From an uncultured Bryobacterales bacterium (GTDB taxonomy: Bacteria > Acidobacteriota > Terriglobia > Bryobacterales > UBA6623): a stretch of DNA of 64,000 nucleotides. A program made the position numbers and the translations under genes. Under the pieces are notes generated by a model. That model was given only the letters and a program-made list of their open reading frames with translations, did not search any database and was not told the DNA's origin. This document shows positions 44,300-52,689 of the stretch, piece after piece; the stretch's first letter is position 1; the number at the start of each line of letters is the position of its first letter. Location: positions 4,044,435 through 4,108,434 of the forward strand of contig OY282420.1 of NCBI GenBank assembly GCA_958295955.1, read 5' to 3'.

Positions 44300-45688
44300 T
44301 TACTCCGGCAATTCCGCGCCGCGGGTCTCCGGCGCGAAGAACAGCACGGCAATGCCGATCACGAACAGCAGGCTCAGCAGCGAGGCCGTATCGCGCAGGG
44401 AAAATCCCCAATCGCGCTGCATCCATCCGGCGGCAAACAGAATCGGAGCGGCCAGGATACGCCCGACGTTGAAGCAAAACCCCGCGCCGGTGCTGCGCAC
44501 CCGCGTCGGGAACAATTCAGGGAAATAGACGGCGTACCCGGCATGCATGCCGAGCGTCAGAAAGCCGAAGACAGGCAAGGCAACAAGCAGGATGCGCAAG
44601 TCGGACAGAAACTGAAACAGCGCCAGAGCCGAGGCAAGACCCGCCGCGTGGAAGAACAGAAACGCCGGCCGGCGGCCGAATCGTTCCGCCAAAGGGCCGA
44701 AGGAGAGCAGCCCAAGACCGCCGCCGGTCGTTACCAACAGCATCCCCAACATCTCCCAGCGCTTGATCGATCCGAAATTTTCGTCGATAGCCTGTTGGCG
44801 GGGGAGGGACGGACTCGCGCTCGCGTATTGCTCTTCTATTGCTTGGCGAAGAGTGTCTTTGCCGTAGATGTGCGCGCCCCAAAACGTCGCCAGGCCGACC
44901 GCGGCGAGCGTCACGCCGATCACGGTGCGGCGCGCGATTTTTGCCGAAAAAAGAACGGACAGGCGCCCCGAGCCGCGCGGCTCGCCGGCGCCGCGGGATT
45001 TTTTCCACGCCTCCGGCTCTGCTGTCAGCGTCAGGCGGACGGCGACGATCAGCAGCGCCGGAACCGCCCCAAGAGCGAAGCCCAATCTCCAGCCGGAGAC
45101 ATCTAATCCGCCGAGCGCGGCGATCGTAAACTCGCGCTCGGCAACGATGAACGCGCCGGCCGCCACGGCCATCATCGTGCCGACCACGCTCGACGCATGA
45201 AAGATGGCCAATGACCAGGCGCGCGCCCGCCGGGGAAAGACCTCGGCGACGAGCGCCGTCGCCACCGCCCACTCTCCCCCGACGCCCAACGCCACCAGGA
45301 ACCGAAAGACCGCCAGATGCCACCACTGCTGCGAAAGCGCCGACAGAAACGTGAAGCCGGAGTACATGGCGATCGTCAGCACCATCGTCCGGGCTCTTCC
45401 GATACGGTCGCTGAGCATCCCGAAGCAAACGCCGCCCAGCGCGCCGCCCAGGAGAAACGCGCCGAAGGCGATGTTGTTGTAGTAGGAAAGCCTGCCGGCC
45501 AGGCGGGTCTCGTCCGCCGTTGCATCCGCCGGCAGGAGCTCGCGCATCGCCTCATTCATGCTCGCGACGAAGATCTGACCTTCGAAAACATCGAAGATCC
45601 AGCCCAGGGAAGCGATGACGAGGACCAGCCACTGGTATTTCGTAATCCCCGAATACCAGGCTTGCGGGGCGGTTGCGGCGTCAGGCAT
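44300..45688 (-). CDS. MFS transporter (SHS/sialate-like)
   Basis: This roughly 462-residue major-facilitator protein opens its first transmembrane helix with KYQWLVLVIASLGWIFDVFEGQIF. The loop-2/3 motif GMLSDRIGRARTMVLT and GVGGEWAVATALVAEVFP fit the SHS/sugar-acid group. A long periplasmic insert (LRQAIEEQYASASPSL) follows helix 6. The ATG chosen overlaps the divergent NagB-like start (CATG), so no separate promoter space exists. It probably feeds the oxidoreductase and isomerase that follow it on the same strand. Confidence 0.85.
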   Translation of the reverse strand: MPDAATAPQAWYSGITKYQWLVLVIASLGWIFDVFEGQIFVASMNEAMRELLPADATADETRLAGRLSYYNNIAFGAFLLGGALGGVCFGMLSDRIGRARTMVLTIAMYSGFTFLSALSQQWWHLAVFRFLVALGVGGEWAVATALVAEVFPRRARAWSLAIFHASSVVGTMMAVAAGAFIVAEREFTIAALGGLDVSGWRLGFALGAVPALLIVAVRLTLTAEPEAWKKSRGAGEPRGSGRLSVLFSAKIARRTVIGVTLAAVGLATFWGAHIYGKDTLRQAIEEQYASASPSLPRQQAIDENFGSIKRWEMLGMLLVTTGGGLGLLSFGPLAERFGRRPAFLFFHAAGLASALALFQFLSDLRILLVALPVFGFLTLGMHAGYAVYFPELFPTRVRSTGAGFCFNVGRILAAPILFAAGWMQRDWGFSLRDTASLLSLLFVIGIAVLFFAPETRGAELPE

Positions 45689-46580
45689 GAGCGATCGTGA
45701 ACTCGTCCATACTATCGAGACAGAGTGGCTCATGTCTCATCCACGCGCAGCGGAGATTCGACGGCTCAATGCGCTCTCGACCGGAGAATTGATGCGCCGG
45801 GCCGGCGGGCGCTTGACGGTTGTCGAGAGCCTGGAGGCGCTGCACCTGCATTTTGCCGATTCCATCGCCGGGACGGTCGAAGCGAATCACGCCGTTGGCA
45901 GGCCGACGGCGCTTATCCTGCCGTACGGACCTGTCGGGCAATACCCGTTGCTGCGCGACCGCATGCATGGGGGCGGCATTTCAATGAAAAACTGCACGCT
46001 TTTCTTCATGGACGACTACGCCGATGCGGAAGGAAACGCGCTGGATGCGCGGCGCCCGCTGAGCTTCAGGGGAGCGGTCGATTCGTGGCTGCAAACGATC
46101 GATCCGCAACTGCGTCCCAAGCCCGAGAACGTCGTGTTTCCCAATGAAGCGAACGTCGGCGGGATTGCCGATTCGATCGCGCGCGCCGGTGGAATCGACG
46201 TTTGCTACGGCGGCATCGGCATTCATGGACATCTCGCCTTCAATGAGCCGGAGCCGGGCGTCCGCGATTCCGGTCCCCGCTTGGTTCGGCTCAATGAGTT
46301 TACCCGCACCATCAACGCGGTCCGCGCGGGCGTCGGGGGCGACCTCGAAAACTTTCCCCGCCAAGCTTGGACGCTGGGCATGAAACAGTGTCTGGGCGCC
46401 CGCCGCATCGAGCTTTACTGCCGCAACGACCGCGGCCTCGACTGGGCCAACACCGTGCTGCGGTTGGCGCTCCTCGGCAAGCCGGGCGACGATTACCCGG
46501 TCACGTGGGTACGCCGTCATCCACGCTGCCGGATCGTCACCGATCGAAAAACAGCGGCCCCGCCTGCCGTGCGGTTATGA
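45687..46580 (+). CDS. NagB-like glucosamine-6-phosphate deaminase/isomerase
   Basis: This 297-residue NagB-fold enzyme has LILPYGPVGQYPLLRDR, the catalytic-pocket FFMDDYADAEGN (Asp-Asp) and GGIGIHGHLAFNEPEPGV. In E. coli NagB the last motif is GxDGHIAFNEP with a catalytic Asp-His-Glu set. Here the Asp position is His, while His and Glu are kept. Chemistry may therefore differ, for example toward another sugar phosphate. The start at 45687 shares bases with the divergent transporter start; ATG 45732 would avoid that overlap. It is followed one base later by a possible start of the FG-GAP gene. Confidence 0.8.
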   Translation: MSDRELVHTIETEWLMSHPRAAEIRRLNALSTGELMRRAGGRLTVVESLEALHLHFADSIAGTVEANHAVGRPTALILPYGPVGQYPLLRDRMHGGGISMKNCTLFFMDDYADAEGNALDARRPLSFRGAVDSWLQTIDPQLRPKPENVVFPNEANVGGIADSIARAGGIDVCYGGIGIHGHLAFNEPEPGVRDSGPRLVRLNEFTRTINAVRAGVGGDLENFPRQAWTLGMKQCLGARRIELYCRNDRGLDWANTVLRLALLGKPGDDYPVTWVRRHPRCRIVTDRKTAAPPAVRL

Positions 46581-47770: not shown

Positions 47771-48439
47771 TCACGCCTTGCGGAACGTCAGCCAGAAATA
47801 CTGCGTTTCGGCGCCGCTGTGCGCTTCCATGACAAAGCCCGATTCCTTGGTGAGTTTCTCGGATTCTTGCAGGGAGATGGAGACGCCGTTCCAGGTGTTG
47901 TAGCGCTTTTGCCGCGCTCCCGGCGATCCCTGCGCCTGAAACTTGAACAGGCCGCCCGGCTTCAGCACGCGAAAAACCTCCCGGCAGTACGATTCGATCA
48001 CCGTGAACGCGGGGATGTGCTGGAAGACGATGAAGGAGAAGGCGAAGTCGAACCGCTCCGACTCCACGCCGGCAAGAGAATAACCGTCGCCGAGCGTCAA
48101 GCGGACGTTACCGCAATCGCGAAGATTCTCCCTTGCCTTCGCGAGCATCTCGTCGCTGATGTCCAGCGCCGTCACCTCGCCGAAGATGCGCGCCAACATG
48201 CGCGTCATGCGCCCGACGCCGCAGCCGATTTCGAGCATGTTCAAGTCGAGCGGCGATCGGCTGCCGCCGCAGATACGGAGCATGTCCGGCATGATTTCAT
48301 TGGCGACGTTGATCTCCCCGGAGCGGAAAAACTCTCGCTCATCCCATTGCTCGTGCTCGTTTTGGACGTAGTGCCGGGGATTGTCGCGCGCTCGGGCGTT
48401 CCAGTCCTCGCGCATCTCCGAGACGATCTGTCGTTTCAT
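47771..48439 (-). CDS. Class I SAM-dependent methyltransferase
   Basis: This 222-residue methyltransferase has motif I MLEIGCGVGRMTRMLAR (about residues 69-85), EVTALDISDEMLAKARE, a glycine loop LTLGDGYSLAG and FDFAFSFIVFQHI. The C-terminal region includes LFKFQAQGSPGARQ. It sits 16 bp downstream of the enolase-superfamily gene in the same orientation, at the end of the fatty acid hydroxylase/GH3 operon. It may methylate that pathway's product. No substrate can be named. Confidence 0.85.
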   Translation of the reverse strand: MKRQIVSEMREDWNARARDNPRHYVQNEHEQWDEREFFRSGEINVANEIMPDMLRICGGSRSPLDLNMLEIGCGVGRMTRMLARIFGEVTALDISDEMLAKARENLRDCGNVRLTLGDGYSLAGVESERFDFAFSFIVFQHIPAFTVIESYCREVFRVLKPGGLFKFQAQGSPGARQKRYNTWNGVSISLQESEKLTKESGFVMEAHSGAETQYFWLTFRKA

Positions 48440-48455
48440 GCGGCCGTACCCATCC

Positions 48456-49583
48456 TTAAAGGTTAACAGTCTGCGTGATTTTGCCGCGGGCCGCCAGCCC
48501 CCAGCCGGCGCGCTCGGAGAATCCGAAGCCGCGCGTGTCGAGCGCGCCGCCGAACCCGAACATGACGGGCCGGGAGCAGATGTCGTGCTGCAGCAAGCGC
48601 GTGCCGAAAGCGCCCTCTTGCGCGTACAGTGCTTCGCCCGCGGCCTGAGCCGCCGGAAGCGCCGCGCGGGTCAGCACGCTGGTCTCGCCGACTTGCGCCC
48701 CGACGACGACGGGTATCGACATTTCGCGGACATGTTTCAGCACATCGAGAGAGCGCAGCAGCCCGCCCATTTTCGAGATTCGTATGTTGACCATCCAGCG
48801 CCCGGGGTCTCCGGCGATGCGCGGCAGCCAACCGGACCGCGCCGTGCTTTCGTCGAGAACGATGCGCGCTCCGGTGCGTTCCGCGACGAGTCTCATGCCT
48901 TCGAAATCGCCGGAGGCAAGCGGTTCCTCGACCGCGGCGACGGGGCCGAGGGCCGTCAGATATTCGGCAGCTTCGCGCGCATCCTTCCAAAAATTGTTTG
49001 CATCGACGCGGATTCTCTCCTTCTCGATCCCCAATTTGCGCAACGTCTTCAGCTTGCGTTTGTCCGCCGCCAGGTTTCCCGAGAGCTTGAACTTGAAATC
49101 TTTGAGGCCGAGCGCGCGGTACCGCGCCGCCGTTTTCAGAAACAAAGGAAATTCGCTGTCTCCCAAAACCGCCGAGTAAAAGAAACGCCGCCGCAGGCGC
49201 GGAAGCCCCAGCAGGTCTTCTACGGGGACGCGACGTTCCCGGGCCAAGAGATCGAGCAGCGCCAACTCGAGGGCGCACCATGCCGCGGGATGCGCGTCGA
49301 TTGCGCCCGCGCGGTCGGCTTGCCATGCCCGCAAATCGTCGAGCGAATGGATTTCGCGGACGACGGCTTCGCGGACGCCGCGGCAAAACTCCTCGGCGGA
49401 GGCCAATGTCTCGCCGGTCACGTACCGGCGGGGGCAGCCTTCGCCGATGCCCGGCAAGCCGTTTCCGTTTCCCCGCGCCTCGGCCCAGACGCTCTGCATC
49501 CGCGCGCGTTCCGCGGAGGCGTGGCGGAAGTTCAGTTTGAAGGGGATCTCAAGACGCGAAATGCGCAACTCGTCGATTTGCAC
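48456..49583 (-). CDS. Enolase-superfamily protein, MLE subgroup (dipeptide epimerase/OSBS-like)
   Basis: This roughly 375-residue enzyme has a KFKLSG Lys-x-Lys motif, VDANNF (Asp), VEEPL (Glu), LDEST (Asp/Glu) and RISKMGG (Lys on the opposite face). The full catalytic set of the muconate-lactonizing subgroup is therefore present. GTG 49583 is used because it lies five bases after the GH3 stop. A longer frame beginning inside the GH3 gene (to 49637) is possible. It is flanked by an adenylating enzyme and a methyltransferase, so racemisation of an amino-acid-like or acyl-amino acid substrate is a plausible role. Confidence 0.85.
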   Translation of the reverse strand: MQIDELRISRLEIPFKLNFRHASAERARMQSVWAEARGNGNGLPGIGEGCPRRYVTGETLASAEEFCRGVREAVVREIHSLDDLRAWQADRAGAIDAHPAAWCALELALLDLLARERRVPVEDLLGLPRLRRRFFYSAVLGDSEFPLFLKTAARYRALGLKDFKFKLSGNLAADKRKLKTLRKLGIEKERIRVDANNFWKDAREAAEYLTALGPVAAVEEPLASGDFEGMRLVAERTGARIVLDESTARSGWLPRIAGDPGRWMVNIRISKMGGLLRSLDVLKHVREMSIPVVVGAQVGETSVLTRAALPAAQAAGEALYAQEGAFGTRLLQHDICSRPVMFGFGGALDTRGFGFSERAGWGLAARGKITQTVNL

Positions 49584-49588
49584 GGCGC

Positions 49589-51271
49589 TTATGCGTCTCG
49601 AAGACTGACCGCGAACTTCGCGAACGGGAACGAGCAAGCGCCGGCATACTGGAGAGCGACGATTTTGAATTGAATCTCCCGCCGGCCGCGGTCGACGTAG
49701 TGCTGCTTGTAGGCATGGCCGGCCGAGCGTTGGAGCGGCGCGATCTCAAGAGGGCGCAGTCTCCCGCTTTTGCGTTTCTGTTCGTACTCGACGTTGCGCG
49801 CATAGAGCTCGCTTTCCACGGCGGCGCGCAGCAATTCGACTTGCCTCGCTTCCGCCTCCGGCCATTCGATGAAGAGCCGGTAAACCGCGCTCTGCGCATC
49901 CGCGAACATGACGAAAAAAACCGACAACTGCCCGAGCGATTCCTCGGCGGCGCGCACGGCCTCGATGACTTGGCTCTCGTACAGCTTTTCTCCCGTGATG
50001 TTCGTCACGCCGGTTCCCTTTTGCACGAAGCGGATGCAAGGCGTGTCGTGGAACCGCCCGCATGCCTCGACGATGTCGTTCATGAAATAGCGGTAGAGCC
50101 CTCCGCTGGTCGTGACGAAAATGTAGTACCGTCCGCCTTCCTTGAGGCGTTCGATCGTCAGAAATTTGGGCCGACCGTTGTCCCAGTCCTCGCGCTCGAC
50201 GAACTCGAAGAAGTTTTGCTGGATTGTCGGCGCCCCGGTTTGGCTGTCCGTATCGACCGTAATGGAGCCGCGGAACTCGCTTGCCATGTAGCCGAGCTCG
50301 GCGACCCGCACCGACGGCGGCAAGAGCTTGCGCACGGCTTTGAGCGCGATGCCGCAACTGCCGCCGGTCCAGGTTGTGACCAGCCGCAGGCGCGGCCAGA
50401 TATCGCTGACGGAAGGGGTTGCGATGCGTAGCAGGGACTGGAGCTCGGCCATGCGCTCGGCGGAGCATCGCAGGCGAGGCAGCACCGCCGCGCGCTGCGC
50501 CGGGGTGAGGCGGTCGGCGCAGGAGAGCGTACCGGCGGCGATGTCCCGCAGCAGAGTTTCGCGGCGCTCGCCGAAAACCGAGACCAGCTTCAACAACGTG
50601 GACGGGTTTGCCGTTGCGATGCAAGCGATGTCGGGGCAACTCAAGGCCAAAGCGACGATGACATGGTATTTCAACTCGTAATCGTCGATGGCGAGGACCT
50701 CTTCGGGCAGGACGTAGCGCCGGCGGGCGCGGCGGGGCATGATTTGATAAACGTGCCCGGAAGCGGAACCGTACGGCGCGCCGGTTTTCAAGTGGCCCTC
50801 GACAGCCGGGCTGACGATGCCCAGGATTCTGCCATGGAAGACTTCGGGTTCGACGCAAAACAACGCGTAAGACTGCGTTGCCTGCATGCGCTTGTAATCC
50901 GCGAGGGTCTCGTCGAGCAGCGGAATGAGCTTCGGCTTTCCGGTGGTCCCGCTGGTTTGGGCGTAGAGCGCCGGGGGCGCCGCGGTCAGCGCCGGTTCGC
51001 CCGTTTCCTGCTGCCGTTCGATATAGGGGCGCAGCGACTCGTAGGTCTGGACGGGAACGGACGCGGCGAAGTCGTCGTAACCGGCAATGGCCGCGAAGTT
51101 GTGCTCGCGCCCGAAAGCGGTCTGCCGGTTGCGGTGAAGCAGATCGAGCAACAGCCGGTTCTGCGTTTCCCGCGGCTGCCGGCAGGCGCGCACGAAAGGC
51201 CGCCAGTGCGTCCAGCCGAGCGTGTTCATGCGGGCCCGCACGGCGGCGTTTTCGAGCGACTCGAGATTCAT
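49589..51271 (-). CDS. GH3-family acyl-adenylating amidosynthetase-like protein
   Basis: This 560-residue protein has the GH3 fold: ATP-binding YAQTSGTTGKPKLIP (about residues 101-115), then LGYMASEFRGSITVD, FFEFVEREDW, a GGLYRYFMNDIVE segment and FVQKGTGVTNITGEKLYE near the C-terminal domain. GH3 enzymes adenylate a carboxylate and condense it with an amino acid. The bacterial branch is little characterised. Its ATG overlaps the fatty acid hydroxylase stop by four bases, and the enolase-superfamily gene follows, which suggests synthesis of an acyl-amino acid-like molecule. Confidence 0.9.
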   Translation of the reverse strand: MNLESLENAAVRARMNTLGWTHWRPFVRACRQPRETQNRLLLDLLHRNRQTAFGREHNFAAIAGYDDFAASVPVQTYESLRPYIERQQETGEPALTAAPPALYAQTSGTTGKPKLIPLLDETLADYKRMQATQSYALFCVEPEVFHGRILGIVSPAVEGHLKTGAPYGSASGHVYQIMPRRARRRYVLPEEVLAIDDYELKYHVIVALALSCPDIACIATANPSTLLKLVSVFGERRETLLRDIAAGTLSCADRLTPAQRAAVLPRLRCSAERMAELQSLLRIATPSVSDIWPRLRLVTTWTGGSCGIALKAVRKLLPPSVRVAELGYMASEFRGSITVDTDSQTGAPTIQQNFFEFVEREDWDNGRPKFLTIERLKEGGRYYIFVTTSGGLYRYFMNDIVEACGRFHDTPCIRFVQKGTGVTNITGEKLYESQVIEAVRAAEESLGQLSVFFVMFADAQSAVYRLFIEWPEAEARQVELLRAAVESELYARNVEYEQKRKSGRLRPLEIAPLQRSAGHAYKQHYVDRGRREIQFKIVALQYAGACSFPFAKFAVSLRDA

Positions 51272-52170
51272 CGGACCGGGGACCGGCTTTTGTCCGGGCC
51301 GAGTGCCGGCGGCGCCAGCATCTGCGCGGCGAAGTCCTGCGGATAGGCGCGGTTGAGCAGTCCGAGCTCGCCGACCCGGCGGCCTTGCGGCAAGAACCAG
51401 GTTCCGAACGCAAGATCCCAGACAATCAGATTGTTGCCGTAATTGTGGTTCGATTCCTCGGGCAATCGGGAGTGGTGCCAGCGGTGGAGCTCGGCGCCGC
51501 TGACGACGTAGTTGAGAATGCCGTAGCGGACGTCGACGTTCGAATGCTGAAAGAAGCCGTTCACCGCGTAAAAGATGAAATAAAAGGCCAGGGTCTCTGC
51601 GCCGACTCCGAGCAAAATGAAAGGCAGTGCGTCGAGCAGGAACTGCAAGGCTTTTTCAAGCGGATGAAAGCGCCCGACGTTGAGCCAGTAGAGTCTCTTC
51701 GGCGAGTGGTGGACGACATGAAGCCGCCACAGGAAATTGGTATTGTGCGCCGCCACGTGAAGCCAGTAGCGCAAGAGCTCGGCCAGCAGCAGCATCAGAA
51801 CGACCTGCGCCGCAATCGGCCAATGCGCGGGCCAGATGCCCGCGGCGGCGAGTTGAAATTCTTGCGAGGAGCGCAGCAGCAGAGCGGCGGCGCCAAGCGA
51901 AAGCGCTTGGGGAACCAGCATCTGCACGGCGAGCATGAAGGCCAGATCGTTTTTGACTTCGCTCCAGCGCGGCTGCCAGTTGCGGTCGTAGGGAATGACG
52001 AATTCGAGCAGCGCAACCGCTGCGGCGCCGACGATTGCGGCCGCGTAGGCGCAGGGAAGAACGGCCGTCCCCGCTGCTCGATGGAGCGCCTTCGCGGTCA
52101 GCAACGCCGACAGCATCACCGCCGGGTATGCGGCCTTGCGCAAGGGCGTCAGCGGAAGCTTCGAATCCAT
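51268..52170 (-). CDS. Fatty acid hydroxylase/sterol desaturase-family membrane protein
   Basis: This 300-residue integral membrane di-iron protein has the histidine boxes LHVAAHNTN, WRLHVVHHSPKRL and GAELHRWHHSRLP. Four to five hydrophobic segments lie around LLEFVIP, MLAVQMLVPQALSLGAAALL and VVLMLLLAELLRY. It uses O2 to hydroxylate or desaturate a lipid chain. It heads the operon with GH3, enolase-type and methyltransferase genes, so the lipid may be a substrate of the GH3 enzyme. A perfect TATAAT lies 23 bases before the start. Confidence 0.9.
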   Translation of the reverse strand: MDSKLPLTPLRKAAYPAVMLSALLTAKALHRAAGTAVLPCAYAAAIVGAAAVALLEFVIPYDRNWQPRWSEVKNDLAFMLAVQMLVPQALSLGAAALLLRSSQEFQLAAAGIWPAHWPIAAQVVLMLLLAELLRYWLHVAAHNTNFLWRLHVVHHSPKRLYWLNVGRFHPLEKALQFLLDALPFILLGVGAETLAFYFIFYAVNGFFQHSNVDVRYGILNYVVSGAELHRWHHSRLPEESNHNYGNNLIVWDLAFGTWFLPQGRRVGELGLLNRAYPQDFAAQMLAPPALGPDKSRSPVR

Positions 52171-52193: not shown

Positions 52194-52199
52194 ATTATA
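52194..52199 (-). promoter_or_regulatory. TATAAT -10 box of the fatty acid hydroxylase/GH3 operon
   Basis: On the minus strand TATAAT is 23 bases upstream of the hydroxylase ATG. The -35 is not obvious. The same short region must also serve the divergent DUF2147 gene. Confidence 0.4.
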
Positions 52200-52221
52200 G
52201 GCTGTGAGAGGAACGGCGGGT

Positions 52222-52689
52222 ATGCGTGTCCTTTGCTTGCTCTTTTGTCTGCAAGCGGCTTCGACCGCGGGCGCCGCGGGGGAGGCCGACGCCATCGCCG
52301 GTATCTGGGAAGTGGACAACAAGAAGGACATCGTGCGCATCGAGATCGGGCGAACCGGCGAGACTTACGGCGGCTCGATTGTCTGGATACAAGAGAAATT
52401 TTTTCCGCCGGACGACCCGCGGGGCATGGGCGGCGAGCCGAAGACCGACCGCAACAATCCCGATCCGGCGCTGCGGACGCGGCCGATAACGGGCATTGCC
52501 GTAGTCGGGGGCTTGCGCTACGCGGGCAAGCGCCAATGGCAAGGGGGGTGGCTCTACGCTCCCGACCGGGGGCGCAAGGCCCGTTGCAAGGCGAAGCTGA
52601 CCGCGCGCGGGACGCTGCGGGTTCGAGGATTCGTCGGGCATCCGATTTTCGGCAGCAGCATGGAGTGGCGCCGCGTCGAGCCGCGGTAG
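52222..52689 (+). CDS. Secreted DUF2147 protein
   Basis: This 155-residue protein has a signal peptide (VLCLLFCLQAASTAGAAG) and a DUF2147 beta-rich domain: IAGIWEVDNKKDIVRIEIG, TRPITGIAVVGGLRY, GGWLYAPDRGRKAR and LRVRGFVGHPIFGSSMEWRRV. These proteins are small periplasmic lipocalin-like domains with poorly known function. The ATG at 52222 begins directly before the signal peptide. GTG 52204 would add six residues. Confidence 0.82.
   Translation: MRVLCLLFCLQAASTAGAAGEADAIAGIWEVDNKKDIVRIEIGRTGETYGGSIVWIQEKFFPPDDPRGMGGEPKTDRNNPDPALRTRPITGIAVVGGLRYAGKRQWQGGWLYAPDRGRKARCKAKLTARGTLRVRGFVGHPIFGSSMEWRRVEPR

Follow-up and report, generated by a model that had tools for sequence, protein, structure and literature searches.

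A conserved hydroxylase, GH3 and enolase-superfamily gene trio in Acidobacteriota: a candidate aminolipid module

In a 64-kb stretch of DNA from an uncultured Bryobacterales bacterium (the whole of the DNA analysed, here called the window), genes for an OlsE-type fatty acid hydroxylase, a GH3 acyl-acid amido synthetase and an MLE-subgroup enolase-superfamily enzyme follow one another on the minus strand. Their packing exceeds chance and their adjacency is kept in distant genomes, and it is well supported that the three form one real, conserved and co-inherited module. We propose, in a judgment about evenly balanced between right and wrong, that the trio is a GH3-dependent aminolipid module that would carry out N-acylation, racemisation at the alpha-carbon and headgroup hydroxylation. 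The start of the host's 16S sequence, CAGAATCAACGCTGG, fits Acidobacteriota, going by the group's 31F primer.

Results

Gene layout and transcription start

Four minus-strand genes occupy the region (Table 1), and a check of the open reading frames found the order of the families, the frames and the spacings all as the first-pass annotation had claimed. The hydroxylase and GH3 frames overlap by 4 bp (spacing -4), the enolase-superfamily gene begins 5 bp past the GH3 stop codon (+5), and the ATG of the methyltransferase follows after a gap of 16 bp (+16). The enolase frame has an alternative, earlier opening at TTG 49637, but given that homologues match at GTG 49583 we took the latter as the start.

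The same annotation had placed all four genes under one perfect TATAAT. The hexamer is indeed present, approximately 23 bp ahead of the start codon of the hydroxylase, the first gene, and between the operon and a divergent DUF2147 gene. A sigma-70 scan, however, found no promoter at 52199-52194 and no -35 element, and TATAAT occurs twice in the 64-kb window, where 2.75 occurrences are expected by chance; it is therefore at most a candidate for a shared promoter. Co-transcription of the methyltransferase with the trio is possible. The DUF2147 gene (window 52204-52689, plus strand) likely starts at ATG 52222, approximately 50 bp from the hydroxylase start, and a diverged protein that resembles glucosamine-6-phosphate deaminase and has no Pfam match is encoded at 45615-46580 (plus strand).

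Table 1. Positions of the operon genes and associated features, in window coordinates unless a locus is named.
Feature	Position	Strand	Remarks
FA hydroxylase (OlsE-type, di-iron)	51268..52170	minus	300 aa, ATG start
GH3 acyl-acid amido synthetase	49589..51271	minus	560 aa, ATG start
MLE-subgroup enolase-superfamily enzyme, probable N-acyl amino acid racemase	48456..49583	minus	375 aa, GTG start
SAM methyltransferase	47771..48439	minus	222 aa, ATG start; adjoins trio, outside conserved module
TATAAT hexamer, possible -10 element	52194..52199	minus	exact match, without -35 partner
Hydrophobic ~150-aa protein	L055:7318-7779; L050:11526-11990; L026:5264-5800; L027:3267-3755		

Co-inheritance of the trio

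Nine further genomes of the phylum have the trio side by side (loci L026, L027, L045, L050, L051, L052, L053, L054 and L055), as does the verrucomicrobial Pedosphaera (genome G582, locus L077). When the window proteins were mapped on these regions, the order hydroxylase-GH3-enolase was found in every acidobacterial locus except L027, where it is hydroxylase-enolase-GH3; the L045 and L052 regions begin within the hydroxylase, and the L051 region ends within the enolase. In Pedosphaera the hydroxylase and GH3 are naturally fused in one 875-aa frame (L077:684-3311), with the enolase gene following it and apparently split over two contigs. A GH3-enolase pair is present in L028 and L031, of which L031 is cut at a contig end and L028 has no detected hydroxylase beside the two genes.

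No close GH3 was found among 40 relatives; remote GH3 proteins occur in nine of them, the best, with 29% identity and E 2e-42, coming from a different genus within the host's order. Across the phylum a GH3 at E <= 1e-20 is carried by 13 of 396 genomes, the host's own included. Within the class of genome G300, GH3 (E <= 1e-45) was found in 9 of 193 genomes and the enolase, sought independently of GH3, likewise in 9, with 8 genomes common to both (Fisher p 2e-12, genome relatedness being ignored). The two non-shared genomes still have an adjacent pair, the GH3 of G316 being cut by a contig end and the enolase of G386 having diverged. The class of G120 (9 genomes), also searched, contributed nothing further, and a contig scan with one enolase protein gave only two loci.

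In the GH3 tree a branch with support of 100 separates the trio proteins from those of other clusters. The window groups with L053, L050 and L051/L052 in the gene trees (support 93 for the enolase and 96-99 for the others), L055, L026 and L054 group together in the GH3 and hydroxylase trees, and the trio's gene trees have supported groupings in common; in the enolase tree L039, L055 and the deepest forks are without resolution. The enolase of L039 (L039:8001-9038) is a gammaproteobacterial member of the same clade with 42% identity, and no GH3 was found in its genome. Adjacency in about ten genomes, the fusion and the matching trees thus mark the hydroxylase, GH3 and enolase-superfamily genes as a conserved unit, and the first-pass grouping is borne out to this extent.

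The genes that flank the trio vary between genomes, and its patchy distribution together with these changing flanks suggests horizontal movement of the module. GC content was considered as a further mark of transfer and rejected: that of the trio equals its surroundings, so that the patchy distribution is the only sign of transfer.

Variable neighbours and other GH3 clusters

A hydrophobic protein of approximately 150 aa, with no Pfam match, is encoded upstream of the hydroxylase in four loci (Table 1). In L027 it forms one frame with the hydroxylase, in L026 with an S15-type hydrolase; a search of the host's own genome did not find it. The tail of an S15-type hydrolase lies upstream of the trio in L053, and an alpha/beta hydrolase follows the enolase in L028. 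Hydrolases of these two types near trio loci could be O-acyltransferases like OlsI; the window operon has a gene for neither.

A second GH3 clade is found in conserved clusters of its own (L029, L030, L032, L034, L036 and L038), with Rieske oxygenases, fatty acid desaturases and a B12-binding radical SAM protein among the genes scanned, and possibly represents another undescribed lipid or natural-product pathway. At L033:7112-10299 and L035:8805-12817 a GH3 has as neighbours an FA_hydroxylase that is less closely related and a protein matching the hexapeptide repeat weakly, and the L035 cluster also has a Rieske oxygenase.

The hydroxylase and the GH3 synthetase

The Pfam domain of the hydroxylase (PF04116, FA_hydroxylase; E 7e-29, 101 bits) and its histidine motifs HX3H, HX2HH, QHxN and HRWHH, kept across the clade, place the protein in the FA_hydroxylase superfamily. 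Its sole strong NCBIfam match is OlsE, the ornithine lipid headgroup hydroxylase, at 196 bits over residues 11-287 (model of 293 positions), which is below the 475-bit equivalog cut-off (NF052566) though the match is full-length. The window protein thus shares the family and the di-iron histidine motifs with OlsE and differs from it in this score and in its linkage to GH3 and enolase-superfamily genes, including one natural fusion to GH3.

The GH3 protein has all three Pfam domains of its family over their cut-offs (PF03321, E 1e-58, with PF23571 and PF23572) and conserves the nucleotide-binding motifs I (TSGTTGKPK), II (ASE) and III (YRYFMND). The closest solved structure is JAR1, and the best NCBIfam match is OlsH, at 95 bits versus a 620-bit equivalog cut-off (NF052613) and hence below it. 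For the hydroxylase and the GH3, the closest characterised models in NCBIfam are thus OlsE and OlsH. Both proteins resemble aminolipid enzymes, which does not imply the same substrate; with scores well under the equivalog cut-offs (196 of 475 and 95 of 620 bits) the substrate may differ.

Free fatty acid is converted to N-acyl ornithine in the presence of ATP and Mg2+ by OlsH, a GH3 enzyme of Singulisphaera acidiphila (PMC12493201, 2025); in vivo OlsH was silent. In this planctomycete olsH shares one operon with the methyltransferase gene olsG and the gene of the O-acyltransferase OlsI, and other amino acids were suggested as possible substrates of GH3 homologues elsewhere; the paper makes no mention of an enolase-superfamily or racemase gene (PMC12493201). 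The trio is like the OlsH-OlsG-OlsI operon in that a GH3 synthetase expected to make an N-acyl amino acid is encoded with lipid-modifying enzymes. Apart from the low OlsH score of its GH3, it differs in carrying an OlsE-type hydroxylase and an enolase-superfamily enzyme and in having no methyltransferase linkage in other genomes, and among the reading frames and Pfam matches of the window operon there is no OlsI-type alpha/beta-hydrolase O-acyltransferase. A PF13444 search of the host genome (95.5% complete) found no OlsB-type protein; by this search, GH3 is the sole N-acylation route recognised in the genome.

The enolase-superfamily enzyme

The third protein matches PF13378 (MR_MLE_C, E 7e-24), and K164 and K166 (KxK), D194, E219, D244 and K271 are invariant in an alignment of 12 homologues, which supplies the KxK motif, the D/E/D metal ligands and the opposite-strand lysine of the MLE subgroup. 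Its best PDB profile match is 2p88, an N-succinyl Arg/Lys racemase, with dipeptide epimerases next, and fold comparison gave the same neighbours for a predicted structure whose quality is moderate (mean pLDDT 64, with a good barrel and poor termini). NCBIfam models of cis-3-hydroxyproline dehydratase and muconate cycloisomerase match as well, at 62-67 bits. Fold and lysine pair are not diagnostic of one reaction, being shared with cycloisomerases, o-succinylbenzoate synthases and some dehydratases.

N-succinylamino acid racemases employ a two-lysine mechanism with metal ligation of the amide carbonyl (PMC8142540), and their substrates are therefore N-acylated. Mainly because the GH3 product would be such an N-acylated substrate, we infer that the window enzyme is a probable N-acyl amino acid racemase. 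With 2p88 and the MLE-subgroup N-acylamino acid racemases it shares the KxK motif, the D/E/D ligands, the second catalytic lysine and the expected N-acyl amino acid substrate; it differs from them in its identity of approximately 24%, in the R52 (CPRxYVT), VGAQVGETS and AQEGAFG motifs of its clade, and in the linkage of its gene to GH3 and hydroxylase genes.

Dipeptide epimerases bind the ammonium group of the substrate through a DxD motif. Assignment of the window enzyme as a dipeptide epimerase was rejected, since the positions of this motif align to A-Q-E and the site for the ammonium of a free dipeptide is thus not intact. The enzyme is like the L-Ala-D/L-Glu and other dipeptide epimerases (PDB 3jva, 1jpm) in fold and two-lysine active site, but its gene is linked to lipid-type genes, whereas theirs are linked to peptidoglycan-recycling genes.

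The methyltransferase

The fourth protein matches PF08241 (Methyltransf_11, E 2e-22) and has many generic NCBIfam matches, among which no lipid-amine methyltransferase model stands out. Homologues are present in 34 of the 40 relatives (up to 58% identity), none of which has a trio-type GH3; their neighbours vary in the nine loci inspected, and at none of the other loci does a homologue adjoin the trio. Linkage of GH3 and methyltransferase is seen in this genome only. The first-pass annotation had made methylation a step of the pathway and had named a methyltransferase unlinked elsewhere as what would refute it; this is the situation found, both at the other trio loci and in those relatives, where the gene lies in other contexts wherever inspected, and the methylation step is not borne out. 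On linkage, then, the methyltransferase was rejected as a pathway member, and most simply it is a native gene of the order that the trio sits next to.

Discussion

Going by the enzyme families, the proposed aminolipid pathway would begin with GH3 adenylating a fatty acid at the expense of ATP and coupling it to an amino acid through the alpha-amine, to give an N-acyl-L-amino acid, that is, a lyso-aminolipid as with OlsH. The carboxylate and amide carbonyl of this product would then be held at the metal of the MLE-type enzyme, where K166 and K271, on opposite faces, would remove and return the alpha-proton to leave a racemised amino acid; such chemistry works only on an amino acid that is N-acylated, and GH3 would supply a substrate of this kind. 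The OlsE-type di-iron enzyme would at some point hydroxylate the amino-acid headgroup or, less likely, the acyl chain. At the end of the pathway would stand a hydroxylated N-acyl-(D)-amino acid lipid, to which an enzyme encoded outside the operon may add an O-linked acyl group. Points against this reading are the low OlsE and OlsH scores, a fold and lysine pair common to several reactions, the lack of an O-acyltransferase gene in the operon, the L039 enolase in whose genome no GH3 was found, and the poor ends of the enolase model. Setting methylation aside, the earlier proposal of hydroxylation, condensation with an amino acid and epimerisation fits the families. Its companion remark, that it knew of no described pathway with this gene set, needs qualification in that the related GH3 route of OlsH is described (PMC12493201), but no description of a racemase-type partner was found; our literature search found none of GH3 with enolase-superfamily or sterol-desaturase-type genes, and the three-gene set is apparently undescribed.

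Other readings were weighed against the same evidence. Within the same module the enolase-superfamily enzyme might act as a dehydratase or cycloisomerase, with a hydroxyl placed beside the alpha-carbon and the alpha-proton then removed with loss of water, to give a dehydroamino-acid (or cyclised) lipid. The 62-67-bit model matches point this way, and the close-clade enolase is accompanied by a hydroxylase gene wherever the contig is long enough. Racemases and epimerases are nonetheless the best profile and fold matches, OlsE hydroxylates ornithine at C4 (title of Holzl 2018, as cited in PMC12493201) and not at C3, and the GH3-enolase pair of L028, with no detected hydroxylase, fits a hydroxyl-independent reaction better, so that we consider this variant unlikely. 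A low probability also attaches to a soluble small-molecule pathway, in which GH3 would couple a non-fatty carboxylic acid with an amino acid or with a dipeptide that has been epimerised, and some other hydrophobic compound would be the substrate of the hydroxylase: plant GH3 enzymes use hormones and benzoates, JAR1 is the closest solved structure, and dipeptide epimerases are among the closest enolase structures, but the hydroxylase is of the membrane type and nearest to OlsE, the DxD motif is replaced, and the characterised bacterial OlsH acts on fatty acids (PMC12493201).

The four-gene pathway of the first-pass annotation, with an OlsG-like methyltransferase acting on the headgroup amine, would accord with the 16-bp spacing behind the enolase and with the shared operon of olsG and olsH in S. 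acidiphila (PMC12493201); the absence of a methyltransferase homologue from every other trio locus, the 34 relatives that carry one without a trio-type GH3 and in varying surroundings, and the generic NCBIfam matches make it distinctly improbable. Chance adjacency of unrelated genes can be given almost no weight: the flanks of the trio do differ from genome to genome, but its occurrence in about ten genomes, the gene fusion and the matching tree groupings refute it for the trio, and it stands for the methyltransferase.

The aminolipid reading of the trio can be extended, in a tentative way that we regard as possible but on balance doubtful, to a mobile three-enzyme pathway of Acidobacteriota and Verrucomicrobiota that would furnish membrane lipids with a D-configured, hydroxylated headgroup by way of an enolase-superfamily racemase acting on N-acyl amino acids. 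Racemisation would be a novel step in aminolipid synthesis, and aminolipid headgroups that are racemised or of D configuration, should they be made, would add a new feature to membrane lipids. If true, the GH3 aminolipid route would reach beyond the planctomycetes, and a role in membrane lipid synthesis would be gained by the N-acyl amino acid racemases of the enolase superfamily, whose physiological role is in many cases unclear.
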